Positions 6,188 to 40,284 of a DNA stretch of 45,930 nucleotides are shown here, piece after piece (the first letter of the stretch is position 1; every line of letters starts with the position of its first letter). This DNA comes from an uncultured Bacillota bacterium. GTDB taxonomy: Bacteria > Bacillota > Clostridia > Oscillospirales > Oscillospiraceae. Location: NCBI GenBank assembly GCA_947172355.1, contig CAMWBA010000005.1, forward strand, positions 1-45,930, given 5' to 3'. The notes below the pieces were generated by a model. That model saw nothing but the letters and a program-made list of their open reading frames with translations, was not told the DNA's origin and ran no database searches. The position numbers and the translations under genes are program-made.

Positions 6188-6213
6188 GTTCCTTTTCTTG
6201 AAAGAAAAGGAAC
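6188..6213. repeat. Palindromic repeat, copy 1
   Basis: GTTCCTTTTCTT and AAGAAAAGGAAC form a perfect 12-base stem with a two-base centre, followed by CCGAAAAGAATTTTGGCAAA. The same hairpin plus tail recurs, slightly changed, at 43144-43172 and inverted at 43278-43303. It sits next to the recombinase end. Confidence 0.75.
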
Positions 6214-6259
6214 CGAAAAGAATTTTGGCAAAAAACTTCGTTTTTCTTCCAAATTAATT

Positions 6260-13468: not shown

Positions 13469-13477
13469 ATGCCTCTC

Positions 13478-14257: not shown

Positions 14258-14274
14258 ATCAGTTCCTCCATTTC

Positions 14275-15222: not shown

Positions 15223-15224
15223 AG

Positions 15225-16665: not shown

Positions 16666-16669
16666 GGCA

Positions 16670-17695
16670 TTACACTCCTTTTCCAAAGCCGCAGTTGGGG
16701 AAATGGCACTCCGGACAGTTGAGGCACAATCCCCCGTGTCCCAGGCCCGCCAGCTGCTCCTCTGTTACCGGTATATCCGCCAGCAGATAGGGCAGGATCA
16801 AGTCGAAAATGGTTCGTTTGGCGTACATCACACACCCGGGCAGGCCGCAGATAGGCCGCCCATCGCTGGTATATGCCAGCAAAAACATCGCGCCCGGGAG
16901 AACCGGTGCGCCATAACTGACCACCCGAGCGCCCGTATCCCGAATAGCGAGGGGGGTGCGGTCGTCTGGATCTACGCTCATTCCACCGGTACACAACACC
17001 AGTTCGCAGCCCTCTGCCAGCATTTTCGCAATCGCGGCGGTGATTTTCTCGTGGTCGTCCCCCAAAATTTCATGGGCGATCCTCTCACAGCCGTACTCCG
17101 CCAGTTTCTCCTGGATGACGGGGGTAAATGCGTCCGGAATACGGCCGTGGAACACCTCGTTTCCGGTGGTAACCAGGCCATACCGTTTGGGCCGGATGGG
17201 AACCAGCCGCAGAAGGGGCTCCGGTCCGGCCACCCTCCGGGCCCGCTCCATCTTTTCCCGCTCTATCACCAAAGGAATCACCCGGGTTCCGCACAGCTTG
17301 TCCCCCTGTTTCACCGGAAAGCCGGAACTGCGGGTGGCAATCATCATCTCCCCCAGGCGGTTGACCGCCCGCAGACGCTCAGTATCCACCAGCAGCAGGC
17401 CATCTGTCTGGGCGGTCAGCTCAATCTTCCCCTCTTTGGGCTGCGAGGCGGACATATACTCCCCCTGGCAAATACTCCGGAGTATATCCGCCGCCTCGTC
17501 CTCATGGAGCGTATTTTCGTCCTTTTCCCACACATACAGATGCTCTTTTCCTACGCTGAGCAAAACAGGAATATCCTCAGGCCGGACCACATGTCCTTTG
17601 CGAAAGACCGCATCCTTGGCAACCCCGGGAATAATCTGAGTAATATCGTGACAAAGCACCTGGCCTACCGCATCTTCCGTTCTGATGAGCTCCAT
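16670..17695 (-). CDS. Molybdopterin-binding MoeA-like protein with Cys-rich tail
   Basis: A 341-residue protein, first gene of the molybdenum operon. The C-terminal half is a MoCF (molybdopterin-binding) domain (GLVTTGNEV, LVLCTGGMSVDPDDRTP, then GAPVLPGAMFLLAY). The first part (DAVGQVLCHDIT, then FRKGHVV) resembles MoeA domain starts, but the protein is shorter than true MoeA of about 400 residues. It ends with a C-x2-C-x2-C-x4-C motif (CLNCPECHFPNC), possibly a metal or Fe-S site. ATG 17695 follows AGGAGGCAGACA; the longer frame would begin inside the terminator upstream. It may insert molybdenum or sense the cofactor. Confidence 0.8.
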   Translation of the reverse strand: MELIRTEDAVGQVLCHDITQIIPGVAKDAVFRKGHVVRPEDIPVLLSVGKEHLYVWEKDENTLHEDEAADILRSICQGEYMSASQPKEGKIELTAQTDGLLLVDTERLRAVNRLGEMMIATRSSGFPVKQGDKLCGTRVIPLVIEREKMERARRVAGPEPLLRLVPIRPKRYGLVTTGNEVFHGRIPDAFTPVIQEKLAEYGCERIAHEILGDDHEKITAAIAKMLAEGCELVLCTGGMSVDPDDRTPLAIRDTGARVVSYGAPVLPGAMFLLAYTSDGRPICGLPGCVMYAKRTIFDLILPYLLADIPVTEEQLAGLGHGGLCLNCPECHFPNCGFGKGV

Positions 17696-17758
17696 TGTCT
17701 GCCTCCTGTCTTGACTGTCCTTCCTCCGCGTTTGTATCCGTTTGCTTCCAAATTCCTT

Positions 17759-17792
17759 AATCATTCCCGCCCCCTGGAGGGCGGGAATGATT
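17759..17792 (-). terminator. Perfect 14-base stem after the hydrogenase gene
   Basis: AATCATTCCCGCCC and its exact complement enclose loop CCTGGA, five bases past the hydrogenase stop. A weak T-rich stretch follows. It probably separates the hydrogenase operon from the molybdenum operon, although some read-through is likely because only about 60 bases remain before the next start. Confidence 0.75.
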
Positions 17793-17796
17793 AAAA

Positions 17797-19548: not shown

Positions 19549-21377
19549 TCCGTGTTCCTCCCTCCCTTAAAGCTGCCGAAGCCGAAGTGGTCGCACCGCA
19601 GACAGCGGCTGGATTCCTGATGGGCCTCCTCCTGGGTCATCCCCTCTACCACCAGAGAGAAATCTCCCTGGCAGTCGGGGTGGGCATGGCTTTTCAAATT
19701 CACCCGGCCGCAGGGCGGGGTGTTGGTAAAGTGGGCCGGAGGAATTTCCACTTCACTGCTAATTTTGTGGTCAAAGCCCAGGTAGTTGTCAATATTGGCG
19801 GCGGCTACCTTGCCCGCAGCCACGGCACGGATGACGGTGGCAGGACCGGACACCGCGTCGCCTCCGGCGAACACGTTGTCCACCCCAGGAACCGAACTGG
19901 TGTGGTCGGCCTGGATAGCCCCCCGGCTGGTTGTGACCCCCACCTTCTCAAAGGCCTGGGCCTCGATAGCCTGGCCGATGGCTACAATTACATAGTCGCA
20001 GGGAATGCAGAATTCCTTGGCGTCCGCGTCCCCCGGCCTGGGACGTCCATCCCGGCCATAAGCGCCGATGAGCTGAGGACGGGTCCATAGAGCGGCCACC
20101 TTACCCTCCGTATCCGTCTCAATGCGGGCGGGGGCCTGGAGGGGCAGGATCTGACAACCCTCCGCCATGGCCTCCTCAATCTCCTCAGCCAAGGCCGTCA
20201 TGTCCTCCACCCGGCGGCGGTAGACGCAGGTGACGCGCTCTGCCCCCAGCCGCAGGGCGGTGCGGGTGGCGTCCATGGACACATTGCCTCCGCCGACCAC
20301 GCAAACCCGCTTTCCGGTAAAATCAGGGGCCTCTCCATCCCCTACATTCCGCAGCAGAGCCACAGCGCTGATGACATTTTGAGCGTCCTCCCCTTCCAGC
20401 CCCAGCTTTTTGTCGTTGTGGGCCCCGATGGCGATGTACACCGCGTCAAAGCTGGTCTGAATTTCATCCATCGTCAGGTCCTTCCCAATGGACACGCCGG
20501 TATGTACCTTGATCCCCGCACTCAGGATGTGGGCAATGTCCCGATCCAGCACGTCCTGGGGCAGACGGTAGTCAGGGATGCCGTAGCGCAGCATTCCGCC
20601 CAGCTTGGGCCGCTGCTCATAGACGGTGACGTCGTGTCCCATGAGGGACAGGTAGTAGGCCGCTGTCAATCCGCCCGGCCCGCCGCCAATGATTGCCACC
20701 GTCTTGCCGGTCGATTCCGCCCTCGCTGGGGCCTTCATGGGCTGGGAGTGGTCCACCGCATAGCGCTTTAGGCCGCAGATGTTCACCGCATCGTCCACCA
20801 TGCGGCGGCGGCACTGACTTTCGCAGGGGTGCTCGCAGACATAGGCGCAGGCGGAGACGAAGGGGTTGTCCTTGCGGATCAGGCGCACTGCGTCCTCGTA
20901 CCGGCCCTCGTGGACCAGAGCCACATAGCCAGGGATGTCCACATGGGCGGGACAGGTGGATACGCAGGGCACCGGGTGGCTCAAGCCGCAGATGCACCGG
21001 CCATGCAGTACATGCTCCTCATAGTCCTCCCGGAAGCCCCGGACCCCTTCGAGCACCATGTGGGCGGCCTCGTAGCCGATGGCGCAGTCGGCGGAGTCGG
21101 CAATCACCTGGGCGGTGTTCTCGATGAGGTCGATGTCCTCCAACGCAGCGGTACGGTCCAGCACCCGCTCGACAAGGACAGCCAACTGGTTCAGCCCCAC
21201 CCGGCAGGGAACGCATTTGCCGCAGGTCTGGGCGTGGCACAGCCGCAGAAAGTTCAGCGACATATCCACCGGGCAAAGCCCTGGCTGGCTGGCGTTGATC
21301 CGCCGCTCCATGTCACGGTTCAGACTGTTGAGTACCGTTTGGGCGCGGTTCGGGGGCTCAATGGATAACCGACTCAA
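19542..21377 (-). CDS. NuoF-tail/NfnB-type NAD(P)H oxidoreductase, hydrogenase partner
   Basis: A 611-residue fusion. The N-terminal 110 residues match only the C-terminal 4Fe-4S part of NuoF/HydB (CGKCVPCR, Cys52, 55, 58); the FMN and NADH-binding parts of NuoF are missing. Then comes a GltD/NfnB-like body: a cysteine-rich 4Fe-4S helical domain (CICG, CVSTCPAH, then CEHPCESQC), an FAD-binding GGGPGG loop near residue 230 and an NAD(P)-binding VVGGGNVSMDATRTALRLG. Arginines after that motif (VYRRR) favour NADPH. It likely passes NAD(P)H electrons to the hydrogenase. TTG 21377 is chosen because AGGAGGAGAT precedes it. A promoter (TTTCAA, 17 bases, TATAAT on the minus strand) lies upstream. Confidence 0.85.
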   Translation of the reverse strand: MSRLSIEPPNRAQTVLNSLNRDMERRINASQPGLCPVDMSLNFLRLCHAQTCGKCVPCRVGLNQLAVLVERVLDRTAALEDIDLIENTAQVIADSADCAIGYEAAHMVLEGVRGFREDYEEHVLHGRCICGLSHPVPCVSTCPAHVDIPGYVALVHEGRYEDAVRLIRKDNPFVSACAYVCEHPCESQCRRRMVDDAVNICGLKRYAVDHSQPMKAPARAESTGKTVAIIGGGPGGLTAAYYLSLMGHDVTVYEQRPKLGGMLRYGIPDYRLPQDVLDRDIAHILSAGIKVHTGVSIGKDLTMDEIQTSFDAVYIAIGAHNDKKLGLEGEDAQNVISAVALLRNVGDGEAPDFTGKRVCVVGGGNVSMDATRTALRLGAERVTCVYRRRVEDMTALAEEIEEAMAEGCQILPLQAPARIETDTEGKVAALWTRPQLIGAYGRDGRPRPGDADAKEFCIPCDYVIVAIGQAIEAQAFEKVGVTTSRGAIQADHTSSVPGVDNVFAGGDAVSGPATVIRAVAAGKVAAANIDNYLGFDHKISSEVEIPPAHFTNTPPCGRVNLKSHAHPDCQGDFSLVVEGMTQEEAHQESSRCLRCDHFGFGSFKGGRNTEW

Positions 21378-21506
21378 ATTATCTCCTCCTCATCCTTATT
21401 TCCTTAATTATAATATACCATTTTCCATTTTGAAACCCTTATTTTCTACATTTTTTTATTTTCAACGTATATTCCGCTCACAGACTTCCCTGCCGGTCCC
21501 CACTCT

Positions 21507-21745
21507 CTAAAACAGGAAATATGTCACAATGGCAATCAAAGGCATCGAAACCAGGGTGCGCACAAAGAACAAAACAAATAGTTTTCCCGGCCCCAACGGA
21601 ATCTCCGATTCCAGAATGGATGGAGCGCTGCCCGCCCAAGCAATAATTTGAAGCGAGGACAATACCACAACAAAAAATCTGCTGGCCATTGGAACATCCA
21701 TCCCTGTCAGCAGGGCAGATGGCATCGAGACTTCGGCGAGCCCCA
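21507..21745 (-). pseudogene. C-terminal remnant of a YjiH-type membrane protein
   Basis: One frame encodes EVSMPSALLTGMDVP, then hydrophobic segments and LVSMPLIAIVTYFLF before a stop at 21507. This looks like the last about 75 residues of YjiH/nucleoside-recognition (Gate) domain membrane proteins. There is no start. It is joined, in a different frame, to the aconitase-X-like start at about 21740, so a deletion removed everything between. Confidence 0.55.
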
Positions 21746-21936
21746 GCCTCCAAGAGCCGCCCGGAGAACCATATGTCAGCCTCCTGGGCACTGAGAGAGA
21801 CGTGGGCTTTTTGGATAGGTGCCATGCGGGGGGCCTCAAAGCATGTTCCAATCCCCACTTGAATCTGCATCGCCATCGCCTTTCCCCGGCCAAACTCCCC
21901 CCTCAGCATGGCGCGCTGTACGGCAGTCAGTTCCAT
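21740..21936 (-). pseudogene. N-terminal remnant of an aconitase X-like gene
   Basis: ATG 21936, preceded by GGAGGGG, opens MELTAVQRAMLRGEFGRGKA and continues through GIGTCFEAPRMAPIQKAHV to LLEAGAR. This fits the beginning of aconitase X (PF04412, normally about 400 residues). The match ends near 21740, where the sequence becomes the YjiH-like tail in another frame. It lies 18 bases after the hydroxyacyl-CoA dehydrogenase remnant, so the two belonged to one operon. Confidence 0.6.
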
Positions 21937-21954
21937 ACCATCCCCTCCATGCGG

Positions 21955-22387
21955 TTATTTTTGATCCACCGAGAGGTTTCCGGCCTCCGGGTCATATCCG
22001 ATATAAAAACCGCTGCCGGACTTCATCCCCAAACAGCCGGCATCAATCAATTCCTTCAGCCTGGCGGGGGGCTTATCCCGCTCGTCTCCGCTGGCTACAT
22101 AGTAGGAGTTCTCGATGTTGCAGATGGTCTCCAGGCCAATCAGGTCCATCAGCTTAAAGGGACCGATATTGGTGTTCCATTCCAGCATCCAGCCCCGGTC
22201 AAATTCCGCTGGCTCCACAAAGCCGTTGGCCCACAGATACAGACACTCCCGCTTCACCGCCCGCCATACCCGGTTGATGGAGCAGCCCTTGATCTCCCGC
22301 TCCGTCACCACAGGCTCAAATCCCAGTGTGTGATAATGGGCCAGGGCGGCCTGTTTGGTCACTTCGGAGGTACTGAGGTTCCACATC
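21955..22387 (-). pseudogene. C-terminal remnant of a 3-hydroxyacyl-CoA dehydrogenase
   Basis: About 140 residues (EREIKGCSINRVWRAVKREC, then WMLEWNTNIGPFKLMDLIGL, then GMKSGSGFY) match the C-terminal helical domain of 3-hydroxyacyl-CoA dehydrogenases. The NAD-binding N-terminal domain is missing. Upstream the reading continues in another frame as a sigma-54 activator, so this is a deletion junction near 22388. An internal ATG at 22386 could start a 143-residue product, but it would be inactive. Confidence 0.75.
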
Positions 22388-22954
22388 GCCTGTCTCGCCG
22401 GTGATGAGAACCGGCGTATGCAGGGGGGCCACCGTCTGAGCCTCCCGCACCAGCGTTTTCATGGCTTGCGATGTCCCCACCATATCCGAAAAGGTAAAAT
22501 GCGTCCCCTTTGCCATCCCGATCAATTCACTGTGCGGACCATCCTCCCTGCTGAGCAGGCGTTTGTGTTCAATGGTCTCATAGAGCAGTTCCCGCAAAAT
22601 CCCTTCGTTCCGGCTTATGGTATAGACGCCAATCACCTCGCCCTGCCGTACCACTGGATACGTGCTGTAATGAATATAAATGGGTGTTTCACTGACATAG
22701 GCGTGAGGGCGGTAGGCATTGAGGATGGGAACGCCGGAATCAAACACCTGCCGGTGCTCCGATAGTTCCCAGCTGGAGTGGGAGTAGGCGTCCCAAGATA
22801 CCTTCCCCAGCACCTCCTGTGCGCTCATCCGCTCCATCTTCTCCTTTGCAGGGTTAAATATGGTAATCTGACAGGCCTGGTCGGTCAGAATAATCCCCTC
22901 GTTCACATGGGCAACAATCTCGCGCAAGCACTGATTTTCCTCCTCCAATGTCAT
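22388..22954 (-). pseudogene. PAS/sigma-54 activator, truncated at Walker A
   Basis: The frame begins MTLEEENQCLREIVAHVNEGI and has a PAS-like domain (ILTDQACQITIFNPAKEKM) and a linker. It then enters an AAA sigma-54-interaction domain (FSDMVGTSQAMKTLVREA, then VLITGETG), breaking off inside the Walker A loop. The rest of the ATPase and the DNA-binding domain are gone; the frame runs on to 22316 through unrelated sequence. Its start overlaps the stop of the BTAD regulator as ATGA. The lost gene probably controlled the decayed operon that follows. Confidence 0.8.
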
Positions 22955-25900
22955 GGCGTCTCCTCCTCTGCCGCCCGCTGTAAAGCCTGTTCCAGCTCTC
23001 TCGTCTCAATACGGGGCTGAAGCCGGCGGAGATAGGACAGCCCCCAGGTGCAATGTTCAGTTTCGCTGTCGGGCCAAAGGGCCTCCAAACGGGGACAGCT
23101 CCACCGTTTTTCCTTCATCAAGTTCCGAATCTTCCAGGTAATATAGATGGCGACCCCCTTCCACCAGGGCGAACCGATGGTATCACACAGCTTCAGCGCA
23201 CTGGAAATCCGTTCCGCCGCTTGGTCCAGGTTTCCCTCCTGACTGTCAAAAAGAGCGGTATAGGACAGGGCTATAGGGTACTCACTGTACTCGTGAGACT
23301 CCTCATAGATGCTGATTGCATAGCGGAACAGACGTTTCGCTTCCTGGATGTTCCCGCTTTGATAGGCTGCCACTCCGTAATTCGTATAAAACAGAGCGGC
23401 GCCCGGGTAGCAGCCCCGGTTCCGGTTATAGGCGATCGCCTGGTCATAATTGGAAAAAGCCTGGTCATAGTCTCCCTCCAAGCGATAGGTCTCTGCAATA
23501 TAGTTGTATACACCGGCGATGTTGATGGCATAGCGGCCATCCATGTTGGAGTCCAGCCCTTGAAAGGTCTCAATCGACCGTTCCAAGATTATCCTGGCCG
23601 CTGGATAGCGACCGCGCATCAGTTCCAGCAGGCCGGACAGCCGGAGATAGATGCCGTAGTCGGCCGAATGTTCCATCCCCTTCAGCAGACCTCGCAAGAT
23701 GGTCAGGTGCTCGTCCATCACCTGACGGTTTCCGGTTTGGATTCCGTAATAAACCAACTGCAGGCGGCCTTGAATTTCCATATTCCGGTCCTTCATCTGG
23801 CCGCAGCAGTCCAGCAGACGGCGCAGCACCGCCAGCCCTTTCTCATAGCGCCCGTCGTGGATATAGCACCGGCTTTGTATATGGAGCAAAATCAGCTCCA
23901 GACGGTCCAACTCCCGGCTGTCCGGCGCAAATCGGCGCAGCTCCTCCAGTTCCGCCTCCATGGTCTGAAAATAGTCCACCAGACCATCCGCCCCGCCCAA
24001 ACCGGTTCTCGGATCCGCAGTCAGGGTGGGCAGCAGTTCATAACACAGCCCAGCATATGCGTTTAAGGACAGGACCTGATAGCGAAAGGACCGAAACCGG
24101 TCGCCGCCTGCCGTATAGTGGTGAATCAGCTGGTCATAGGGGGCGGCCTGCCCTGCCTCCAGCCTCTCTTCCCAGTATTTGGCCGCCCGCAGGTGCAGCA
24201 GTCTCCGTCCGGATTCCGACTGTTGCTGCAAAACGGCGCTTTTGATCCGCTCGTGGGCAAAGCAGTATTCCAGCCGCTCCCCTTTGACCCCTTCTGCCAG
24301 CAGCTTTTTCTGGGTGAGCTGATGGCATAGGTAGGTCAATTCCAGGGTTTCCTTTTGCAAAATGGCAGACAATGCTTGAAACGGTGCCCAAGAAATGAAT
24401 ACAGACACCAGTTCCAGCACCCGCCGTTCATCCTGAGACAGAGAGGCCAGGCGATAGGCGATGATATCCTCGGGGATCTGGGGCAGATCAGACAGTTCCT
24501 CCTTTTCCTTCAGCGCATCCGCCAGCTGGGCCAGCAAAAGGGCGTTGCCCCCGGTATTTCGATAGGCAAGCTCCACCAGTTCCGCATGCAGTTCCCGGTC
24601 AACACACTGGTAGAGGAACCGTTCTGTCTCCTTCAAGGTAAACCGGCGCAGAGCCTGCCGCCGAAGCACCTTATCCCGCAGGCCGTCGTCCACAAATTGC
24701 TCCATATGCGCCGGGAGGATGTCCCGTGCGGTACAGATGACCGCCACATCCTGTTTGCTCAGCCGCCGCAGAAACAGAGAGAGCAGCTCTGCGCTGCCGC
24801 GGTCCATCCAGTGGATGTCCTCAAAAATCAGAAGGACTGGGACTCTTCGAGCCACCACAGAAAAAATGGTCAACAGGCTGCGCAGGGAGGCGTAATAGTC
24901 CGATTGCAGCGGAAACCCGCAGTCCGCTCCGGTCAGCTGGGGCTCCTGCTGACCGGTCAGGCCGGGAAACAGTGCCGCAGCTGTCTGGGCATATTGTTCC
25001 GGGATGGGGATATGGCGCAGTTCCAATTCCGTAACAAGGGCCATAAGGATGGAATTCCAAACGGTCAGGGACCCGCTCTTCTCTGTCTGATAACAAAACC
25101 CCCGGCAGACCAGCCAATCTGATAGATCGTACTTGCCAAGCAAATAGTCCAGCAGATAGGTCTTGCCAATTCCCGCCTCCCCCTCCAGCAGAAGGCAGGG
25201 TTCCTGATGCACCCCAGCCGTCATACCGCACAAGGCCAGCAGCGCCCGCAGCGCCTGCTCCTTGCCCATCAGAGGTTCCTCCTCCCGCTCGTCCATCTGG
25301 GAAGCGCGGTCATTCCATTGATCGGCAATTTCATAGTAGAGGGCGGTGGTCTCCTTCAGCGGGGCAATTCCAAATTCACTGGACAACTGTTGGCATAGAT
25401 CCTGATATAGTGCAATGGCCCGCCGGAACTGCTGCTGGGCACAGCAGATCCGCATCAGCAGCATCACCGCGTTTTCCTCCACGGGATCGGTCTCCAGATA
25501 GGCCAGGCAAAGCTGCTCCGCCCGCTCCAGCTCCCCTTGGCTGTAGCACTCCTGTCCCGCCTCCAGCAACACCCGCAGATACCACGCCTGGAGCGAGGCC
25601 CGCTCCCCCATCAGCCAGCTTTCAAACGCCTCCGCTTTGGGGACAACAAACCCCTGCAGCAGCTCTCCGCTGTACAAAGAGGGTTCGCCGGTGGCCAGAA
25701 ATTCCGATACATCGCACCAGACCTCCACCTCGGGCGCAAGCTCCAGAACGGTCCTCTGTCCTCCGGAAAAGGGGTCCCAGCCCAACTCCTTTCGGATGGA
25801 ATAAATGGCGTGGCGCAGGTTTTTCAGCGCGGACTGGCTGCTGGAATCCGGCCACAGCAGACCAATCAGCTCGCTGCGTGCTGCACGGCGCTTCAATACA

Positions 25901-26004
25901 AGATAATACAGCAGGGCATCCGCCTTTTTATAGGGGAGGCTCAGCGTCCGGCCGTCCGCTGTGACCTTGGGAATCCCAAACAGCTTTGCATCCAATCGTG
26001 CCAT
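22951..26004 (-). CDS. Large BTAD-AAA-TPR transcriptional regulator (AfsR/SARP-like)
   Basis: A 1017-residue protein. Residues 1 to about 95 form an OmpR-type winged helix (ELIGLLWPDSSSQSALKNLR, typical of SARP proteins). Residues about 95-235 are a bacterial transcriptional activator domain made of TPR-like helices. Residues about 260-500 are a STAND-type ATPase (EGEAGIGKT as Walker A; LLIFEDIHWMD as Walker B). The rest is TPR-like repeats. Such proteins sense an unknown ligand through the repeats and switch on nearby operons. There is no C-terminal LuxR domain. Candidate targets are the BCCT/lyase operon and the Mo-hydroxylase operon upstream, but this is only positional inference. Confidence 0.85.
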   Translation of the reverse strand: MARLDAKLFGIPKVTADGRTLSLPYKKADALLYYLVLKRRAARSELIGLLWPDSSSQSALKNLRHAIYSIRKELGWDPFSGGQRTVLELAPEVEVWCDVSEFLATGEPSLYSGELLQGFVVPKAEAFESWLMGERASLQAWYLRVLLEAGQECYSQGELERAEQLCLAYLETDPVEENAVMLLMRICCAQQQFRRAIALYQDLCQQLSSEFGIAPLKETTALYYEIADQWNDRASQMDEREEEPLMGKEQALRALLALCGMTAGVHQEPCLLLEGEAGIGKTYLLDYLLGKYDLSDWLVCRGFCYQTEKSGSLTVWNSILMALVTELELRHIPIPEQYAQTAAALFPGLTGQQEPQLTGADCGFPLQSDYYASLRSLLTIFSVVARRVPVLLIFEDIHWMDRGSAELLSLFLRRLSKQDVAVICTARDILPAHMEQFVDDGLRDKVLRRQALRRFTLKETERFLYQCVDRELHAELVELAYRNTGGNALLLAQLADALKEKEELSDLPQIPEDIIAYRLASLSQDERRVLELVSVFISWAPFQALSAILQKETLELTYLCHQLTQKKLLAEGVKGERLEYCFAHERIKSAVLQQQSESGRRLLHLRAAKYWEERLEAGQAAPYDQLIHHYTAGGDRFRSFRYQVLSLNAYAGLCYELLPTLTADPRTGLGGADGLVDYFQTMEAELEELRRFAPDSRELDRLELILLHIQSRCYIHDGRYEKGLAVLRRLLDCCGQMKDRNMEIQGRLQLVYYGIQTGNRQVMDEHLTILRGLLKGMEHSADYGIYLRLSGLLELMRGRYPAARIILERSIETFQGLDSNMDGRYAINIAGVYNYIAETYRLEGDYDQAFSNYDQAIAYNRNRGCYPGAALFYTNYGVAAYQSGNIQEAKRLFRYAISIYEESHEYSEYPIALSYTALFDSQEGNLDQAAERISSALKLCDTIGSPWWKGVAIYITWKIRNLMKEKRWSCPRLEALWPDSETEHCTWGLSYLRRLQPRIETRELEQALQRAAEEETP

Positions 26005-26198: not shown

Positions 26199-27773
26199 TT
26201 ACTCCGCCGCGTCCTCCTCTTTGGCGTAGGTGTCGGCATAGCTGCCCAGCAGCTTAAAGCAGCTGACCGCCATCGCCGCCACCACAAAGAGCAGGGGGAA
26301 CGCGCAGGTGATGGCAAGCAGTTTTGTGGCGTTAATGCCGGAGGTGTTGCCGGTGATTCCAGCCACCAGGATGTTGACAAAGGCCAGAGCTGCCATGACC
26401 ACCCCCCAGAAGATTTTGATTTTAGCGGGCGGCTCCTCCGCCGCGACATCCTCGCCGGTGAGGGTGATGGAGGCCACCGTGGTGGTCATGGATTCGCACA
26501 GGGTGACGACCGACAGGAATGCAGTAACCATAAAGATCACCGACAGGATTTTGCTCAAGGGGAGATTCTGGAAGAAGGCGAATACCGCCGCCTCGGTGCC
26601 AAGGTCGGCCATCGCCTGACGGATCCCGGCGCCGCCGGCCTCCATATAGATGGCCGCGCCGCCAAAGATGGCAAACCACAGCATACCAAACAGTCCGGGC
26701 AGAACAAAGTTGAACAGGGAGAACTCTTTCAAGGTACGGCCCTGGGCAATCTTGGCCAGGAACATACCGGTGAGGGGGGTATAGGCAATCATAAAGGACC
26801 AGTAGTTGATGGTCCACCAGGTAGGCCACATGGCGGTCTCAGCGCCGTCGGCCATTACCCCTAGATAGGTGTTCTGTACGATCCAGTTTTGGGCAAAGAA
26901 GCCCATGGACTCGGTTCCCATCGCCAGAATTTCTTTGGTCTGGGCGCAGAAGAACACATAGACCAGCAAAAGCATATAGATCTTGGCGTTCTTATCGGAC
27001 AGCCAGCGCACACCATTTCCGATGCCGCTGACACTGCCGATAATGAAAGTAATCACAATGACCACCGTGATGATAAACCAATGCTTCGCCTCCGGGGTAA
27101 AGCCGGCCAGGATGCCCAGTCCGGAACCCAACTGCATGGAGGAAACGCCCAGACTGGCGGACACACCGCCAGCGATGCCGAATACACACAGCAAATCCAC
27201 CAGATTGCCGACATTTCCGTTGATCCGGTCTCCAATCAGGGGATAGAGGCTGGAGGAGACATTATAGGGCTTGCCCAGATTGTATACGCACACCCCAATG
27301 ACAATGCCCACAGCGCAGTAGTAGGCATATAGCGGCAGCCCCCAGTGCATATAGCAGGTGCTCAGCGCATAGAGCGCGGACATGCGGCTGCCGCCCCCTT
27401 CCACCAGACCGGGAATGCCGTCTATGTAATGGGTGATGGGCTCGGCAATCCCCCAGAACACGATACCGGTGGCGATGCCGCTGCACAGGGAGATGGCGAA
27501 CCAGTTCCACTTGCTCATGGTGGGTTTGGCATTGGGACCGCCAATGCGGATGGACCCCACTTTCTTGGAGAACAGCACCCACACGCAGATTATGATAAGG
27601 ACAATGGTGACGATCTGGTACAGCCAGCCAAACCACCCGGCAGCAAAGCCCACTACGGCGTTCTGTGCCGCCGCAAAGGCCTCCGGAACAAGGATACCTA
27701 AGAGCGTGACAAGAATATAGATGGCGCACAGGGGAATAAAGACGCTTTTTCGAATTTGAAAGCCTTTTTTCAT
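26199..27773 (-). CDS. BCCT-family transporter (betaine/carnitine/choline type)
   Basis: A 524-residue protein with about twelve membrane segments. It has the family signature SGIATGIVFWGIAEPITHY (residues about 96-114) and the Trp-rich TM8 segment WWTINYWSFMIAYTPLTG that forms the cation-pi box for quaternary ammonium groups. It would import a trimethylammonium compound, driven by sodium or by exchange as in CaiT. There is no long C-terminal osmosensing tail, which favours nutrient uptake over osmoprotection. ATG 27773 follows GGAGGAAG. It lies 100 bases after the lyase gene on the same strand, so co-transcription is likely. Confidence 0.9.
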   Translation of the reverse strand: MKKGFQIRKSVFIPLCAIYILVTLLGILVPEAFAAAQNAVVGFAAGWFGWLYQIVTIVLIIICVWVLFSKKVGSIRIGGPNAKPTMSKWNWFAISLCSGIATGIVFWGIAEPITHYIDGIPGLVEGGGSRMSALYALSTCYMHWGLPLYAYYCAVGIVIGVCVYNLGKPYNVSSSLYPLIGDRINGNVGNLVDLLCVFGIAGGVSASLGVSSMQLGSGLGILAGFTPEAKHWFIITVVIVITFIIGSVSGIGNGVRWLSDKNAKIYMLLLVYVFFCAQTKEILAMGTESMGFFAQNWIVQNTYLGVMADGAETAMWPTWWTINYWSFMIAYTPLTGMFLAKIAQGRTLKEFSLFNFVLPGLFGMLWFAIFGGAAIYMEAGGAGIRQAMADLGTEAAVFAFFQNLPLSKILSVIFMVTAFLSVVTLCESMTTTVASITLTGEDVAAEEPPAKIKIFWGVVMAALAFVNILVAGITGNTSGINATKLLAITCAFPLLFVVAAMAVSCFKLLGSYADTYAKEEDAAE

Positions 27774-27804
27774 AATCTTCCTCCTTATATGCAGTACGCA
27801 TATA

Positions 27805-27818
27805 CCGGTCCGGACCGG
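27805..27818. promoter_or_regulatory. Perfect 14-base palindrome upstream of the BCCT gene
   Basis: CCGGTCCGGACCGG reads identically on both strands, 32 bases before the transporter start and 57 bases after the lyase stop. It may be an operator or an mRNA processing hairpin. No protein can be assigned. Confidence 0.4.
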
Positions 27819-27874
27819 CTCTTTTTGCGCTCACAGTGTAACACTTCGGCGTTGATACAACGTTGAATGCGCCT

Positions 27875-29392
27875 TTACTCCCGGTCTGCCGCCAGGATTG
27901 CCTGGTCCATCCGGCCCTCTTGGATCAAGCGGTATGCCGTTTCAATATCCACGCTCAGGTTCCGGTCCTGATCCAAAAAGGGAACCTCTTTGCGCAGCGC
28001 AGCGTAGACCGCTCCGGTTACCCGGCCTAAGCCGGGCTTCTTCCGCAGGTCGATGGCCTGGGCGGCGTGCATAGCCTCAATCCCCAGCATATACCGCAGA
28101 TTGTCCAAAATCCGCATCACCTTAGCGGCCGCCAGGGGCAGGTTGCTGGCATGGTCCTCAATGGAACCGGCTACCGCAATAAAGTCCATGGAACTGGGGT
28201 TGGCCAACATCCGGTTTTCCGCGTCCAACACGGTGAACACCTTTTGAATGGTACCATAAGCGATGGTCTTTACCTCCGCAGGGGTAAGGAAGCGGGTCAA
28301 TCCGGTAAACGCCGGGTCGGCTAGGTGGATCAGCCGGTAGCAGATGCACTTTGACATGTGGTTCAAGGCAGCGGCCAGCATTTCCACCCCCAGGGCCAGG
28401 GTGGTGGTTTCAAAGTTCTGGCTGACACAGGTGGTGCCGTCCTCGTAGTGAATGAACGGGTTGTCGTCGGTGGCGTTGATTTGGATCTCCATGTGGCGCT
28501 CCACAAACTCCACCGCGTCCAGCACCGCCCCGTGCACACCGCTGGCACAGCGGAAGCTGAGGGGATCCTGGAGGGCACGATTGGGATCGGGCCGCTCCAG
28601 ATAACTGCCCTCCAAATAGCGCAGGCATTGGGCGGCGCATTGGCTCTGGCCGCTGAGGCCGCGGGCATCGTTGGGCGCCTTCCCCATGGGCTGAAGGCCG
28701 CCGTTCAGCCCCTCCAAGCTCAGGCAAAACACCGCATTGGCCTCCCGCAGCAGCTGCCGTGTCTGAACGAGCATCACCGCTACAAGCGCTTCGCCCTGGG
28801 CGTTGGAAGAGACAATGGACAGCCCGTCCTTTGGCCCCAGTACCGCCGGAGCAATCCCCTCCGCAGCCAGCGCCTGGCTGGCCGGGACAATCTCCCCTTG
28901 GTACTCCACCTCGCCCTGGCCGATCATGGCTTGGCCGATAAGGGACAGGGTACTGATATCCCCCTCCCCGATGGATCCCCGCTGAAGGACCCGGGGATGG
29001 ATGCCCCGGTTCAGAAAAAGCTGATACATGGTTAAGATGTCCACCGCAATTCCAGTACGGCCGCACAGGGCTGTGTTCAGCCGGATACACAGCATAGCCC
29101 GAACCTCTTCCACCGAGCAGTAGGGCCGGATGCCCAGCGAGTGGCTGTTGATCAGGTTGCGGTTATAGGTCTCGAAAAATTCCGGGTCGAACTCTTTGTC
29201 CTTGTTCCAGCCTACTCCCCGGTTTAGACCATAGACCGGCTTACCCTCCGCCGCCATATCAAACAGGACCTGACGGGCCTGTGCGGCCCGCTCCAGCGCC
29301 TGGGGGTCCAGCTCCACCGGACGGCGGTCATACGCCACCTGACGCAGCTCCTCCAAAGTGAGTCCGCTCCCATTTAAAACGATGGGTTCCAT
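27875..29392 (-). CDS. Aromatic ammonia-lyase family protein lacking the MIO triad
   Basis: A 505-residue protein of the HAL/PAL superfamily over its full length. The segment that makes the MIO cofactor, normally GS-x-GASGDL, reads GSIGEGDI (139-146): the Ala-Ser-Gly is absent and one residue is missing, so no MIO can form. Several other active-site positions of histidine ammonia-lyase are kept: Tyr54 (YGLN), His84 (SHS), Gln275 and Arg281 (QDPLSFR), Phe327 and Glu412. The usual Tyr in QDPYSLR is Leu278. Loss of MIO fits elimination of a good leaving group such as trimethylamine (ergothionase-like chemistry) rather than ammonia. It is paired with a BCCT transporter. ATG 29392 has a GGAAT-type weak binding site. 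Confidence 0.88.
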   Translation of the reverse strand: MEPIVLNGSGLTLEELRQVAYDRRPVELDPQALERAAQARQVLFDMAAEGKPVYGLNRGVGWNKDKEFDPEFFETYNRNLINSHSLGIRPYCSVEEVRAMLCIRLNTALCGRTGIAVDILTMYQLFLNRGIHPRVLQRGSIGEGDISTLSLIGQAMIGQGEVEYQGEIVPASQALAAEGIAPAVLGPKDGLSIVSSNAQGEALVAVMLVQTRQLLREANAVFCLSLEGLNGGLQPMGKAPNDARGLSGQSQCAAQCLRYLEGSYLERPDPNRALQDPLSFRCASGVHGAVLDAVEFVERHMEIQINATDDNPFIHYEDGTTCVSQNFETTTLALGVEMLAAALNHMSKCICYRLIHLADPAFTGLTRFLTPAEVKTIAYGTIQKVFTVLDAENRMLANPSSMDFIAVAGSIEDHASNLPLAAAKVMRILDNLRYMLGIEAMHAAQAIDLRKKPGLGRVTGAVYAALRKEVPFLDQDRNLSVDIETAYRLIQEGRMDQAILAADRE

Positions 29393-29467
29393 ATAATTCC
29401 TTCTCTCCGTTTCTAGTTTGGCCCGCTTGCCTTGGGCCGTCTATAATGGTTATCATATAGAAATAGG

Positions 29468-29496
29468 GTTGAATTTTAGTCAAAAACAGATTCAAC
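29468..29496. promoter_or_regulatory. Inverted repeat in the divergent lyase/hydroxylase promoter region
   Basis: GTTGAAT (29468-29474) and ATTCAAC (29490-29496) are separated by 15 bases, in the middle of the 188-base gap between the two divergent operons. On the minus strand TTGACT (29482-29477) with TATATG about 18 bases on could be the lyase promoter; on the plus strand TATAAA near 29519 is a possible -10. A shared regulator binding here would control both operons. Confidence 0.5.
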
Positions 29497-29580
29497 GCTT
29501 TTTCAATCATCCCTGTGCTATAAATATGTTGCTTGAAATGGATAAAAAACACGATTATTTTAACGGAGGAGGCATGTCTT

Positions 29581-31836
29581 ATGCATCTGGTCGGTGTCAG
29601 CCATCCGATCCAGGACGCACGGGGCAAGGCTGCCGGTCGCACCCGCTATGCGGCGGACCTGGTGCTGCCCCGTATGGCCCATGTCGCTATGGTGTTCAGC
29701 ACAGTCCCTCATGGGTACGTCACCTCAGTGGATGCCAGCCAGGCCCTGGCGCTGGAAGGGGTCTATGGAGTATTTCACTGCTTTAACACCCCGGAGTACC
29801 GCTTCAACCGGTATCGCAGCCAATACTCGCAAACACTCATTCCGGAGGAGCCGGTTTTTGCCCGGCGGGTCCGCTTTGTGGGGGACCGGGTGGCCGCCGT
29901 AGCCGCCCGCGACCTGGAGACTGCCCGCCGTGCGGCGGCGCTGGTCCAGGTGGAGTATCAGCCGCTGCCCTGCGCCCTCACCTTTGAACAGGCACTGGAG
30001 GGAATCAACTGCCTGGAGGGGGAGTCCCCCATCCGGGACGAGTTTACCATGGAAATCGGGACGCCCCCTTCCTTGGAAGAGGGCCTGATCGCGGTCACCG
30101 CCCACACAGAGCTGGGCCGGCTGCACCATGCGGCCATGGAGCCCCACGTCTGCGTGGCCGACTATGACCCCGACCTTGACGAGCTGACCCTGCGCAGTCC
30201 CAACCAGTCTGTCCACGGCATCCGCACCGTGGTAGCCGACATGCTGGGGATGCCATACAGCCGGGTCCGCGTGGTGAAAACTACCATGGGCGGCTCCTTC
30301 GGCTCCAAGCAGGAGTGGACGGTGGAGCCGGTGGCCGCTGTGGTGGCCCGCCAGCTGAGGCGCCCCGTTAAACTGGTCTATGACCGCGCCGCTGTGATGC
30401 GCTCTATTGTATGCCGGGGACCTATGCGGGCAGAGATGACCATGCGCTTTCAGCCGGACGGCACTCTGGTCAGCCTCGACCTGGACCTGCTCAGCGACGC
30501 AGGCGGATATATTGCCAACTCTTCCGATTATGTCCACACCTTGGTGGGAAAAATGTTCCGCTGTTACCGCATCCCCTATGGCCGTACCCATGTCCGCCTG
30601 GTCTCCAGCAACACGCCGGTCTCCGGCTCCTTCCGGGGCTGGAGCAGTCCGGAGGTGGCCCTGATGCTGGAGCACACCATGGAAAAGGCCGCCAGAGTCC
30701 TGGACATGGACCCGGTCCAGCTTCGGCTGAAAAATGTCCTTCTTCCAGGGGAGCGGGACCCCAAAAGCGGCCTGCCCATGGAGGAAGTACGCACCCGGGA
30801 ATGTCTTCTTCTGGGGGCGGAACGGTTTTGCTGGACAGAGAAACGCCGGGAAGACGCTGCCTTCAACGCCGCCAGCCCCCGATTCCGCCGGGGCACTGCG
30901 GTGGCCTGCGGCGGGCACGGCAACACCTACTACCCCAGATACAACGATTTTGCGGGCGTCGAAATGCGGATGTGCGAGGATGGGAGTGTCCAAGTGGAGG
31001 TGAGTATCCACGACCACGGCTGCGGCACCGGGATGGCCTTTCAGATGATTGTGGCCGAGGCCCTGGAACTGCCCATTCAACAAATCCGTCTCAAAGAGGC
31101 GGATACCGCCCATACTCCCTTTGACTTTGGCTGTTACGCCAGCCGGGGCACCTTTGTGGTGGGGAGGGCTGCCCAGCTTTGCGCCCTGAAGCTGCGGGAT
31201 GAAATTCTCAACGTCGCCGCCCAAAAGCTGGACACCACCCCCGACCGGCTCTATTTCGACGGTCCCTCTGTCCGCAGCAAGGACAGCCCGGAGATAACTC
31301 TGAGCTACAAGGATGTGTCCTGGTACGCCCTTGGAACCCTGTGCCGGGAACTGACCGCCCAGGAAAAACATGCGGTCCGTTCCAACCCCGGCGTCACCGG
31401 CACTCACTTCGCCCATGTGGAGGTGGATACCTGGACCGGGCTGACCCGTGTGCTGGACTATTTGGCCGTCCACGACATCGGCCAGTCCATCAACCCGGAG
31501 ATGTGTGCAGCTCAAGTTCAAGGCGCCGTCCAAATGGGGTGCGGCGCCGCCTTGCGGGAGGAAATTGAAATCTCTTCCAACGGGCAGAGCACCTGCTCCC
31601 TGGCAAAATATCACCTGATGAACGCCCCCGACCTGCCGGACATCCAGGTGGAACTGATTCAGGACGGCCGTTCCCAGGAGGGTCCCTATGGGGCCAAGTC
31701 CATCGGCGAAGTCAGCTTTGTTCCGGCTGCCCCGGCGGTGGCCGCCGCTGTCAACCAGGCCCTTGGCAGCGACATGGGCCGTATCCCCATGACGCCGGAC
31801 CGAATTATGGAAACCATCGCAAAGGAGGGGCGCTGA
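29581..31836 (+). CDS. Molybdenum hydroxylase large subunit (xanthine dehydrogenase family)
   Basis: A 751-residue molybdopterin-binding subunit. It begins with the small aldehyde-oxidase N-domain (GRTRYAADLVLP, then RVRFVGDRVAAVAA) and continues with the two cofactor domains. Key segments: GGSFGSKQE (family GGGFGGK), SGSFRGWSSPE (family YRG.G.PE, keeping Arg), HDHGCGTGM near residue 480 (family GQG; Gln replaced by Cys) and GAKSIGE with the catalytic Glu710. It would hydroxylate a heteroaromatic or similar substrate with water-derived oxygen. ATG 29581 follows GGAGGAGG; the ATG at 29574 is out of frame. It heads a three-gene operon with the Fe-S and FAD subunits. The substrate is unknown. 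Confidence 0.9.
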   Translation: MHLVGVSHPIQDARGKAAGRTRYAADLVLPRMAHVAMVFSTVPHGYVTSVDASQALALEGVYGVFHCFNTPEYRFNRYRSQYSQTLIPEEPVFARRVRFVGDRVAAVAARDLETARRAAALVQVEYQPLPCALTFEQALEGINCLEGESPIRDEFTMEIGTPPSLEEGLIAVTAHTELGRLHHAAMEPHVCVADYDPDLDELTLRSPNQSVHGIRTVVADMLGMPYSRVRVVKTTMGGSFGSKQEWTVEPVAAVVARQLRRPVKLVYDRAAVMRSIVCRGPMRAEMTMRFQPDGTLVSLDLDLLSDAGGYIANSSDYVHTLVGKMFRCYRIPYGRTHVRLVSSNTPVSGSFRGWSSPEVALMLEHTMEKAARVLDMDPVQLRLKNVLLPGERDPKSGLPMEEVRTRECLLLGAERFCWTEKRREDAAFNAASPRFRRGTAVACGGHGNTYYPRYNDFAGVEMRMCEDGSVQVEVSIHDHGCGTGMAFQMIVAEALELPIQQIRLKEADTAHTPFDFGCYASRGTFVVGRAAQLCALKLRDEILNVAAQKLDTTPDRLYFDGPSVRSKDSPEITLSYKDVSWYALGTLCRELTAQEKHAVRSNPGVTGTHFAHVEVDTWTGLTRVLDYLAVHDIGQSINPEMCAAQVQGAVQMGCGAALREEIEISSNGQSTCSLAKYHLMNAPDLPDIQVELIQDGRSQEGPYGAKSIGEVSFVPAAPAVAAAVNQALGSDMGRIPMTPDRIMETIAKEGR

Positions 31837-31837
31837 G

Positions 31838-32308
31838 ATGAAATTGGATTTCTTTGTCAACGAGGAGGCTGTCACCCTGGAGACCCAGCCCCAGCGCCGC
31901 CTGCTGGACATTCTCCGTGAGGACCTGGGACTGACGGGCACCAAGGAGGGCTGTTCGGAAGGGGAGTGCGGGGCCTGCACCGTTTTGTTGGACGATTTGG
32001 CTGTTCACTCCTGCCTCACCCTGGCCGCTCAGCTTCAAGGCCGGCGCGTAACCACCATTGAGGGACTGGAGAAAAACGGGGAGTTGGATATCTTGCAGCG
32101 CTGCTTTGTGGAGGAAATCGCCATTCAGTGCGGCTTCTGCACCACAGGGATGATTATGTCCGCCAAGGCCCTTCTGCTGCAAAATCCTCACCCAACGCCG
32201 GAGGAGATACGCACCGCCCTGTCGGGCAATCTCTGCCGCTGTTCCGGTTATGTGCAGATTGTCAAAGCTGTCAGCCGTGCGGCCGACGAGATGGGAGGCC
32301 GCGTATGA
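31838..32308 (+). CDS. Molybdenum hydroxylase 2Fe-2S subunit
   Basis: A 156-residue subunit with two iron-sulfur clusters: the plant-type ferredoxin site (GCSEGECGACTVLLD, then SCL; residues about 40-60) and the C-terminal helical site (QCGFCTTGMIM and NLCRCSGY). It passes electrons from the molybdenum centre to the FAD subunit. ATG 31838 starts one base after the large-subunit stop, and the stop overlaps the FAD subunit start. Length is typical for XdhC/CoxS subunits. Confidence 0.95.
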   Translation: MKLDFFVNEEAVTLETQPQRRLLDILREDLGLTGTKEGCSEGECGACTVLLDDLAVHSCLTLAAQLQGRRVTTIEGLEKNGELDILQRCFVEEIAIQCGFCTTGMIMSAKALLLQNPHPTPEEIRTALSGNLCRCSGYVQIVKAVSRAADEMGGRV

Positions 32309-33135
32309 GCACCTGTTATATTCCAAAGACGGTGGAGGAACTGGGGGGTGCCCTGGGCCATCTCACCGAGGACAGTCTGATTTTGGCCGGCGGCACCGAC
32401 CTGGTTCTGCACCTGCGGGCAGAACACCTCCAGCCAGACGTTCTGCTGTCTCTGTGCGGCGTACCCCAGCTGCGCATCATTGAGATCACCTCAGAACAGG
32501 CTTCCATTGGGGCCATGGCCACTATGGCGGAGATTCACAAGGCTATGGACGGTCTGCCTGACCTGCAGGCGCTGGCCGACGCTGCCGGCGGCGTCGGCTC
32601 CCCTCAGATCCGCAACAAAGGCACCATCGGCGGCAATGCCGCCAACGCCTCTGCCGCCGCCGACCTGCCTCCGGTGCTGTGGCTGCTCAACGCCCAGGCG
32701 GAGATTATGGGCCCCGGCGGCGTACGCCGCACCATCTCTGTCCAGGAACTGGCCGACGGTCACCAGGGAAATACACTTGCCTTGGGCGAAGTGGTTCTCC
32801 GGTTCCTCATCGACCGCACCGCTTTTACAGGCTGGCGCTCTGCATTTGTAAAGCTGGGCCACCGCTCCCAAGTGACCATTTCCCGTATCGGTATGGCAAT
32901 GGCTCTGCTTCAAGCGGCGGACGGCACCATTCAAGACGCCCGCGTGGTGGCAGGAGCCATTAAGCCTGTCCCCTTCCCTCTCCCCGCCGCTGAAGCAATC
33001 CTCCGTGGAAAGAGGCCCGACCCAGGTCTCGCAGTTGAACTGGGGGAGACCTTTAAAGGCAATACCCGCAGAGTTTATAAGGAAAACGCCGCAAAAGGCG
33101 TATTCCAGGATACCCTGCTGCGTTTTCAACCCTAA
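32305..33135 (+). CDS. Molybdenum hydroxylase FAD subunit
   Basis: A 276-residue FAD-binding (CoxM/XdhB-type) subunit. The FAD pyrophosphate loop is AGGTDLVL near residues 29-36 and the second FAD contact is RNKGTIGGNAANASAAADLPP near residue 105. It would hand electrons to NAD or another acceptor. There is no extra 4Fe-4S insertion of the 4-hydroxybenzoyl-CoA reductase type. The start overlaps the Fe-S gene stop as ATGA, and an intrinsic terminator follows the gene. Confidence 0.93.
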   Translation: MSTCYIPKTVEELGGALGHLTEDSLILAGGTDLVLHLRAEHLQPDVLLSLCGVPQLRIIEITSEQASIGAMATMAEIHKAMDGLPDLQALADAAGGVGSPQIRNKGTIGGNAANASAAADLPPVLWLLNAQAEIMGPGGVRRTISVQELADGHQGNTLALGEVVLRFLIDRTAFTGWRSAFVKLGHRSQVTISRIGMAMALLQAADGTIQDARVVAGAIKPVPFPLPAAEAILRGKRPDPGLAVELGETFKGNTRRVYKENAAKGVFQDTLLRFQP

Positions 33136-39351: not shown

Positions 39352-40284
39352 TCAACCGGCAAACATGGGGGTAGTCAGGTAGCGGCTGCCGGTATCGGGC
39401 AGCAGAACTACAATGGTTTTCCCCCTGTTTTCCGGCCGTCTGGCCAGCTCCATAGCTCCCCAGACCGCCGCTCCAGAGGATATCCCCACCAGCACACCCT
39501 CTGTCCGGCCCATCAGTCTGGCGGCGGCAAAGGCGTCCTCATCCTGGACCGCAATCACTTCGTCGTAAATCTGGGTATTCAGCACTTCCGGAACAAAGCC
39601 TGCACCGATTCCCTGTATCTCGTGGCTGCCGGCAGCGCCTTTGCTCAGCACAGGAGAAGATGCAGGTTCCACCGCTACGACCTGAATCGCCGGGTTCCGC
39701 TGCTTTAAGTACTCCCCTACTCCGGTGATGGTGCCTCCGGTGCCCACACCGGCCACAAAAATATCCACTGTCCCCTCTGTATCCTCCCAAATTTCAGGAC
39801 CGGTGGCCATCCTGTGCGCCTCTGGGTTGGCGGGGTTGACAAATTGTCCGGGAATTATGCTGTCAGGGATTTCATTCGCCAATTCATCCGCTTTGGCAAT
39901 CGCACCCGCCATCCCTTTGGCCCCCTCGGTGAGTACCAGTTCCGCACCATAGGCCCCCATCAGCAGGCGGCGCTCCATGCTCATCGTTTCCGGCATGACG
40001 ATGATGGTACGATAGCCTCGGACTGCGGCAACACAGGCCAAGCCAATTCCCGTATTTCCCGAAGTAGGTTCAATGATGACAGAACCCGGCTTCAGCTTCC
40101 CCTTCGCCTCCGCGTCCTCAATCATTGCCAAGGCCGCACGGTCTTTCACACTGCCAGCGGGGTTCAAAAATTCCAGCTTGGCCATAACCCGGGCCGAAAG
40201 GCCCTCCTGTCTCTCCACATGTGTCAGTTCCAACAGTGGGGTCCTTCCAATCAACTGCTCCACAGAAGTATAAATCCGGCTCAT
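39352..40284 (-). CDS. cysK: Cysteine synthase (O-acetylserine sulfhydrylase)
   Basis: A 310-residue PLP enzyme making cysteine from O-acetylserine and sulfide. The PLP lysine is Lys47 in [11 protein letters not shown], the phosphate-binding loop is TSGNTG near residue 75 and GTGGTITG near residue 175, and SSGAA near residue 260 contacts the pyridine ring. ATG 40284 follows GGAGGAGAT. It has a perfect promoter and a start-site inverted repeat, and stands alone. It could help assimilate sulfide, including any released by catabolism of thiol compounds. Confidence 0.95.

Follow-up and report, generated by a model that had tools for sequence, protein, structure and literature searches.

We analyzed a 45,930-nucleotide stretch of DNA from an uncultured Bacillota bacterium of the Oscillospiraceae (contig CAMWBA010000005.1 of assembly GCA_947172355.1; hereafter the window). 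The window is one entire contig (C5) of a 3.1 Mb assembly that is 77% complete, and it carries a gene block that we propose to be a locus for the use of ergothioneine, a dietary antioxidant found in mushrooms. In this block, the genes for a BCCT-family transporter and a lyase diverge from those of a three-subunit molybdenum (Mo) enzyme, and a regulator gene lies alongside. An earlier account made from the letters alone (the sequence-only reading) had proposed uptake of a histidine-type betaine, elimination of trimethylamine by a lyase free of the methylidene-imidazolone (MIO) group, and oxidation of the product by the Mo enzyme. The open reading frames were found where that account had placed them, with Pfam matches over the cut-offs, including the transporter, the lyase and the three Mo-enzyme subunits:

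26199-27773, minus strand: BCCT-family transporter, proposed ergothioneine importer (Pfam BCCT, 404 bits)
27875-29392, minus strand: probable ergothionase, an MIO-less ergothioneine trimethylamine-lyase (Pfam Lyase_aromatic, 431 bits, and the match to structure 6s7j)
29581-31836, plus strand: XdhA-type Mo-binding subunit, proposed reductive thiourocanate desulfhydrase (Pfam Mo-domain match; motifs GGSFG with Ser239 and GCG with Cys481)
31838-32308, plus strand: 2Fe-2S subunit of the Mo enzyme (Pfam Fer2_2 and Fer2)
32308-33135, plus strand: FAD subunit of the Mo enzyme (Pfam FAD_binding_5 and CO_deh_flav_C)
22951-26004, minus strand: BTAD/AAA/TPR regulator of the SARP/AfsR-like kind, proposed operator binder (Pfam BTAD, AAA_16 and TPR)

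Two starts can be drawn for xdhA, TTG at 29533 and ATG at 29581; the latter, which is preceded by a GGAGG site, is most likely the start.

The best solved match of the lyase is the ergothionase of Treponema denticola (6s7j, 640 bits), the next being a histidine ammonia-lyase (236 bits), and 286 of the 490 residues aligned with the T. denticola enzyme are identical (58%). The Ala-Ser-Gly triad of MIO enzymes is replaced, the window protein reading GSIGEGDIS where histidine ammonia-lyase has GSxGxSGDL. We discarded an ordinary histidine ammonia-lyase on this ground, and the lyase is MIO-free as the sequence-only reading had it. In an alignment made without duplicate and partial lyase loci, the blocks YGLNRGVGWNKDK, SNAQGEA, QDPLSFRCA, GTIQK and IEDHASNLP are the same or nearly the same as in the T. 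denticola enzyme, and the canonical histidine ammonia-lyases diverge from the window protein in these active-site blocks. By its sequence, the window lyase is most likely an ergothionase that releases trimethylamine from ergothioneine; the proposed elimination from a histidine-betaine-type substrate was probably right, the closest solved match being an ergothionase. A separate lyase with a Ser-Ser-Gly triad is encoded elsewhere in the same genome (L003; here and below, L marks loci and G genomes).

There is a slim chance that the lyase in fact acts on another aromatic betaine, such as hercynine, and that no sulfur chemistry takes place. Hercynine is ergothioneine minus only the sulfur, and MIO-less paralogues with altered active-site residues stand beside BCCT or other catabolic genes, so that the family probably covers several substrates. 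However, the blocks of the window lyase agree with those of the T. denticola enzyme and not with those of the paralogues, and hercynine would give a desulfurizing Mo enzyme nothing to remove.

The association of these genes extends to other species. One scan of a species-genome collection with the lyase alone, which used short peptide seeds and reached close relatives only, returned 19 named loci, including ones from Oscillibacter/Oscillospiraceae, Peptoniphilus, Anaerosphaera, Acidaminococcus, Sedimentibacter, Schnuerera and a record labelled Fusobacterium naviforme. A large subunit of the xanthine-oxidase family lies within 4.1 kb of the lyase in all 19. The distance is at most 0.72 kb in 15 loci and 1.4 to 4.1 kb in the other four (L040, L045, L054 and L055), where regulator, transporter or Mo genes stand in between; the Mo enzyme of L050 belongs to another subfamily, and that of L042 is fragmentary. 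The partnership of BCCT transporter and lyase, also part of the sequence-only reading, recurs in 18 of the 19 loci (one BCCT gene being partial at a contig end, and the nineteenth contig being 6 kb long), and a BTAD-type regulator homologue is present in seven. In a set of 60 genomes, the window's own and 59 relatives, two of the relatives (G007 and G035) encode a lyase with 60% identity or more, four (G007, G035, G008 and G014) a Mo enzyme with 56% or more, and two (G007 and G020) a BCCT transporter with 50% or more. The co-conservation on which the proposal had been staked is therefore seen across the named loci, though the full gene set has a patchy distribution in the genomes closest to the window's, some of which encode the Mo enzyme but no close lyase.

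The Mo enzyme is complete, as had been claimed, with Mo-, 2Fe-2S- and FAD-domain matches over the Pfam cut-offs. It is not an ordinary xanthine dehydrogenase: XdhA scores 507 bits against a curated cut-off of 780, and it carries GGSFG and GCG, which we take to lie at the Mo site, instead of GGGFG and GQG. Its best solved match is 4-hydroxybenzoyl-CoA reductase (1rm6, 233 bits). GGSFG together with GCG occurs in 23 of the 38 distinct large subunits that we compared, in a window type and a Peptoniphilus type; in the remaining 15, the first motif reads GGGFG or GGAFG and the second GQG or GTG. GGGFG and GQG are also what five solved relatives carry (CoxL, 4-hydroxybenzoyl-CoA reductase and three xanthine oxidase/dehydrogenase chains). 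In a 38-row tree, from which L035 was left out as a duplicate of L034, the 23 enzymes form two clades on one side of a branch with 100/99 support. Independent recruitment of the two types was consequently not upheld, tentatively so in view of the midpoint rooting, long branches and thin outgroups of this tree. In the test for invariant columns, L078 was placed in neither the group nor the outgroup. The motif around Glu710, presumably the catalytic glutamate, is retained in all XdhA rows shown.

Two papers describe chemistry that fits these genes. A gut xanthine-oxidase homolog is stated to cleave a C-S bond reductively in ergothioneine catabolism (PMC12771579, PNAS 2025, citing Feng et al.), and a thiourocanate desulfhydrase is stated to liberate H2S, with thiourocanate feeding B. 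xylanisolvens through cross-feeding (PMC13405746). We infer that the window Mo enzyme belongs with this C-S-cleaving homolog and that, by analogy, its step most likely converts thiourocanate to urocanate and sulfide. The change to Ser and Cys in the two motifs gives an independent hint from sequence for sulfur chemistry, and a cysteine that handles sulfur is plausible.

The oxidation envisaged by the sequence-only reading found no support and probably has the wrong direction, as the gut homolog is reported to cut the C-S bond reductively when it acts in this pathway (PMC12771579). That the enzyme instead hydroxylates thiourocanate or urocanate and removes no sulfur reductively appears improbable to us. 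Oxidative reactions are the rule for most members of the xanthine-oxidase family (PMC12771579), the Glu710 motif is kept, and GQG-type Mo enzymes stand beside such lyases in P. catoniae and G035 and beside an Ala-Cys-Gly lyase in G016. Yet the same source reports reductive cleavage for a homolog in this very pathway, and the Ser and Cys of the window enzyme are specific to its clade.

The block also has a candidate control element. The 16-base sequence TTCAACGCTTTTTCAA is a direct repeat, TTCAA-N6-TTCAA, with an 11-base period, and it recurs before three genes of the window:

29491-29506, plus strand: operator before xdhA, TTCAACGCTTTTTCAA, 0 mismatches, with TATAAA 12 bases on
29458-29473, minus strand: operator facing the lyase gene, TTCAACCCTATTTCTA, 3 mismatches
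27852-27867, minus strand: operator before the BCCT gene, TTCAACGTTGTATCAA, 3 mismatches, with a TACACT -10-like box 11 bases on

At up to three mismatches these are the only matches in the window, where 0.26 would be expected, and none of 100 shuffles reached three; the operator-like repeat noticed in the sequence-only reading is therefore real. Across the 3.1 Mb assembly, at up to two mismatches, the xdhA site is the single match, and since the reversed control pattern also gives one match, the genome-wide count alone is not above control.

We scanned 18 loci at up to three mismatches. The operator precedes xdhA or its operon in all nine loci with a window-type Mo enzyme (the window, L033, L034, L038, L039, L040, L055, L073 and L074). 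It precedes the BCCT gene in four of the six window-type loci that hold one (the window, L033, L039 and L055, not L038 and L040) and faces the lyase in the window, L039 and L040, with none found there in L033, L038 and L055. Four operator-like matches lie away from any placed start of a block gene (L033:232, L039:9479, L053:274 and L055:14792), and a promoter scan found 4 against 2.9 expected (standard deviation 1.7), no excess over chance. Regulators of the SARP/BTAD type bind direct repeats with a period of about 11 bases before their promoters. The BTAD domain of the window regulator scores 44 bits against a cut-off of 22.1, and this protein is a candidate for binding the TTCAA operators.

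In one relative, G014 (L073:896-10015, G014:C11), operator sites lie between a 59% regulator homologue and an operon of a flavin reductase, a DASS/CitMHS-like transporter and a window-type Mo enzyme, with no lyase adjacent. This form resembles what one would expect of a thiourocanate scavenger living on the ergothioneine breakdown of another species.

The transporter is best matched, among solved proteins, by BetP (214 bits, a family likeness over nearly the whole length). With each of the five NCBIfam BCCT models that it matches, its score stays under the cut-off (344/650, 306/407.55, 230/695, 181/541 and 153/647 bits), which places it outside the curated glycine betaine, carnitine and choline subfamilies. 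The four Trp positions of BetP, which we take to form the substrate-binding box, are Tyr, Phe, Met and Tyr in the window protein. In C. glutamicum, deletion of betP raised ergothioneine production marginally, and BetP was suggested as a possible importer (PMC12689799), which is weak direct evidence for ergothioneine import by a BCCT transporter. Our literature search, with most subscription journals outside its reach, found no paper linking a BCCT transporter to an ergothionase locus.

We think that the BCCT transporter probably imports ergothioneine. An alternative, unlikely in our view though the one to take most seriously, is that it carries osmolytes, carnitine or choline and just happens to adjoin the lyase, ergothioneine entering otherwise, for instance through EgtUV. 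The named BCCT models and the solved relatives are mostly for osmolyte, carnitine or choline substrates, and two kinds of BCCT transporter, only about 31% identical to each other, occur near the lyases, the second retaining Trp where the window protein has Met. Against this alternative stand the presence of a BCCT gene at nearly all named loci, the operator common to the BCCT, lyase and xdhA genes in the window and its presence before the BCCT gene in the three further loci given above, the changes at the four BetP Trp positions, and the C. glutamicum deletion (PMC12689799).

As to the fate of urocanate, a urocanase was found in 17 of the 18 lyase-bearing genomes searched (the window's own, G007, G035 and 15 of the 19 named, the search omitting L042, L045, L048 and L050), the miss being G035, which is 72% complete; four of 14 control genomes were also over the cut-off. 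None of the seven that we scanned looks like a thiourocanate hydratase: the own urocanase scores 303 bits and six others 307-549 bits against the cut-off of 930 of NF058530, six of the seven having been scanned as tblastn-aligned stretches with their ends missing. It is accordingly very improbable, in our view, that a urocanase-like hydratase acts on thiourocanate, as it does in aerobic soil bacteria, and the Mo enzyme only later. Five of the 18 lyase-bearing genomes (G064 and G067-G070) do have a second, lower-scoring urocanase-like gene, and the copies scanned from three of these genomes score 587-597 bits with the S-methyl thiourocanate hydratase model (cut-off 880) against 580-586 with the urocanase model. 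However, all seven urocanases stay under the thiourocanate hydratase cut-off of NCBIfam, and the own assembly, 77% complete as it is, has a single urocanase, of the ordinary kind by score.

That urocanase lies in a cluster (L070:1812-13395, G000:C13) with same-strand genes for a family III CoA-transferase, a HadB/HadC-type dehydratase, an acryloyl-CoA-reductase-like dehydrogenase, EtfBA and a BTAD regulator. The cluster suggests a coenzyme A (CoA)-dependent reduction of urocanate, perhaps towards imidazole propionate, by a route that we assume to differ from UrdA. No such gene set was seen beside the urocanases of five other 17-20 kb loci (L077, L093 and L095-L097), and no operator was found in L070-L072 at up to three mismatches.

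Several observations weigh against an ergothioneine locus built around these genes. A urocanase over the cut-off is found in 17 of the 59 relatives, all of them within the 36 congeners, and because 17 of 36 congeners thus carry one, the urocanase link is weak, consistent with the pathway and nothing beyond that. G008 and G014 (2 of the 59 relatives) encode a window-type Mo enzyme though their best genomic lyase match is only 31-32% identical. In P. catoniae (L050), lyase and BCCT genes adjoin a Mo enzyme without the signature (GGAFG and GQG). In G035, the lyase closest to that of the window (63-64%) stands beside a GQG-type Mo enzyme, and the GCG-type Mo enzyme adjoins more distant lyases (49-50%). 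These last two genomes may reflect either Mo enzymes with another role or gene shuffling. The operator is absent, at up to three mismatches, from five loci with a Peptoniphilus-type Mo enzyme (L041, L042, L045, L047 and L056), and the sixth, L053, has one unplaced match. Peptoniphilus-type BCCT transporters have only part of the box-residue changes of the window protein, the lyases are accompanied by the two dissimilar BCCT kinds described above, and in G020 a 56% BCCT homologue stands beside a different MIO-less lyase.

On balance, we consider it likely that the block is an ergothioneine-utilization locus of an anaerobe, combining BCCT import, a lyase, reductive desulfuration and operator control. 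In our model, the BCCT transporter would import ergothioneine, and the MIO-less lyase, by homology to the solved ergothionase, would convert it to trimethylamine and thiourocanate. The three-subunit Mo enzyme, with electrons from reduced carriers, would cut the C2-S bond of thiourocanate to give urocanate and hydrogen sulfide, and the urocanate may then go to urocanase or to CoA-dependent reduction encoded elsewhere in the genome. The regulator would activate xdhA, lyase and BCCT genes by binding the TTCAA repeats, and the surrounding genes would, judging from their families, provide molybdate and the Mo cofactor. A bolder extension, towards which we are more sceptical than favorable, is that the Ser/Cys-marked enzymes make up a separate branch of the xanthine-oxidase family that cleaves C-S bonds reductively and in which the Cys takes part in sulfur abstraction (e.g. 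as a transient persulfide), that the BCCT transporter is a dedicated ergothioneine importer and that the G014 form is a thiourocanate scavenger.

The genes that would serve the Mo enzyme lie on the far side of the regulator gene:

10141-11472, minus strand: XdhC/CoxI-type Mo-enzyme maturation factor (Pfam XdhC_C and XdhC_CoxI)
11160-11753, minus strand: MobA/MocA-like nucleotidyltransferase (Pfam NTP_transf_3), overlapping the adjoining reading frame, its start uncertain
11763-14377, minus strand: ABC transporter, proposed for molybdate (Pfam ABC_tran, BPD_transp_1 and SBP_bac_11), with ATPase 11763-12806, permease 12803-13468 and binding protein 13478-14377
14275-17830, minus strand: Mo-cofactor biosynthesis proteins (MOSC/MoCF, MoaA-type, MoaC and MoCF-domain; Pfam)
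17797-21377, minus strand: NuoF/GltD-like NAD(P)-binding oxidoreductase and group A [FeFe] hydrogenase, between the Mo-cofactor genes and the regulator

Molybdate as the substrate of the ABC transporter is suggested by the neighboring genes. No second XdhA match was found in the own assembly at E up to 1e-60, and the Mo-cofactor, molybdate and XdhC genes may therefore serve this single Mo enzyme. The hydrogenase scores 755 bits, just below the cut-off of 765 of the NADH-dependent A6 model, and together with the NuoF/GltD-like oxidoreductase it could supply or drain electrons.

Window positions 21478-22954 hold a decayed remnant, in which the start of a sigma-54-activator-like gene (a call that rests on similarity to L034 and L036, there being no Pfam match) is fused into the end of a 3-hydroxyacyl-CoA dehydrogenase gene, with a truncated aconitase X gene. 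The dehydrogenase and aconitase X genes are intact in G007 (L036), where they adjoin the activator and a paralogous MIO-less lyase split in two frames. We also considered a carnitine locus and rejected it, the 3-hydroxyacyl-CoA dehydrogenase remnant (21955-22386) being assigned to this decayed neighboring cluster. A PALP-family gene (39352-40284) lies about 6 kb beyond the block, which bears out the earlier remark that cysK is not linked.

Other MIO-less lyases occur in these genomes. A second clade of the histidine ammonia-lyase family (GSVGYLSPEAH or close, with the triad deleted) adjoins its own BCCT gene in the genome to which the window belongs, at G000:C13:28503-31649 (L004, L071), and also does so in nine relatives (G001, G003, G007, G014, G016, G020, G022, G031 and G034). 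Its loci are L004, L071, L072, L075, L076, L098-L102 and L031; L043, L044, L053, L054 and L056; five ergothionase genes have a member of this clade no more than about 6 kb away. The obvious guess for its substrate is another quaternary-amine betaine. Paralogous lyases with GSVGEADITT are found at L034 (G035:C138:8808-11879) and L036 (G007:C1:3361601-3363102), the G007 copy being linked to aconitase X and 3-hydroxyacyl-CoA dehydrogenase; in both, the lysine of GTIQK is replaced by Asn or Asp, and they probably act on a different substrate. A third type (GSVGMSDLGN, 40% identical to the window lyase) at G000:C8:10215-11690 (L037) adjoins an M20 peptidase-type gene and a sodium:solute symporter gene. 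Finally, at G016:C28 a lyase with an Ala-Cys-Gly triad (2194-3789) lies near a GQG-type XdhA (4415-6613), and the pairing of lyase and Mo enzyme therefore extends beyond ergothionase.

To the knowledge of the sequence-only reading, no pathway using this set of genes had been described for gut Clostridia, a statement that looks outdated in view of two papers cited in PMC13405746, namely Feng et al. (JACS 2025, 10.1021/jacs.4c09350) and Zhou et al. (2025); the pathway chemistry appears to be already in print for gut bacteria. What our analysis usefully adds are the operator, the BCCT link, the Ser/Cys motif signature and the form that pairs the Mo enzyme with an anion transporter and has no lyase next to it. 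In a search with the Burkholderia enzyme, ergothionase was held to be restricted to few genera (PMC13405746, 2026); the loci listed here suggest that it is more widespread among anaerobes. The operator, the GGSFG/GCG motif and the BCCT pairing are simple markers for species that possibly turn ergothioneine into trimethylamine and sulfide.

Compared with known systems, the window lyase shares its MIO-less motif and active-site blocks with T. denticola ergothionase (PDB 6s7j and 6s7q). The aerobic five-step catabolism of ergothioneine, associated with the names Beliaeva 2021 and Burkholderia HME13, is said to begin with ergothionase, followed by thiourocanate hydratase. The proposed locus has the same start, whereas none of the seven urocanases scanned matches the hydratase step. 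BetP and the other BCCT transporters are of the same family as the window transporter, which differs at the four BetP Trp positions. 4-Hydroxybenzoyl-CoA reductase (1rm6) and the urolithin C dehydroxylase Ucdh, likened here by its description, are reductive members of the xanthine-oxidase family like the proposed enzyme (PMC12771579); they remove oxygen, whereas the window enzyme would remove sulfur, and 1rm6 has GGGFG and GQG. The gut ergothioneine pathway of Feng et al. is described as one in which a xanthine-oxidase homolog cuts the C-S bond and thiourocanate gives off H2S (PMC12771579, PMC13405746), as we propose for this locus.

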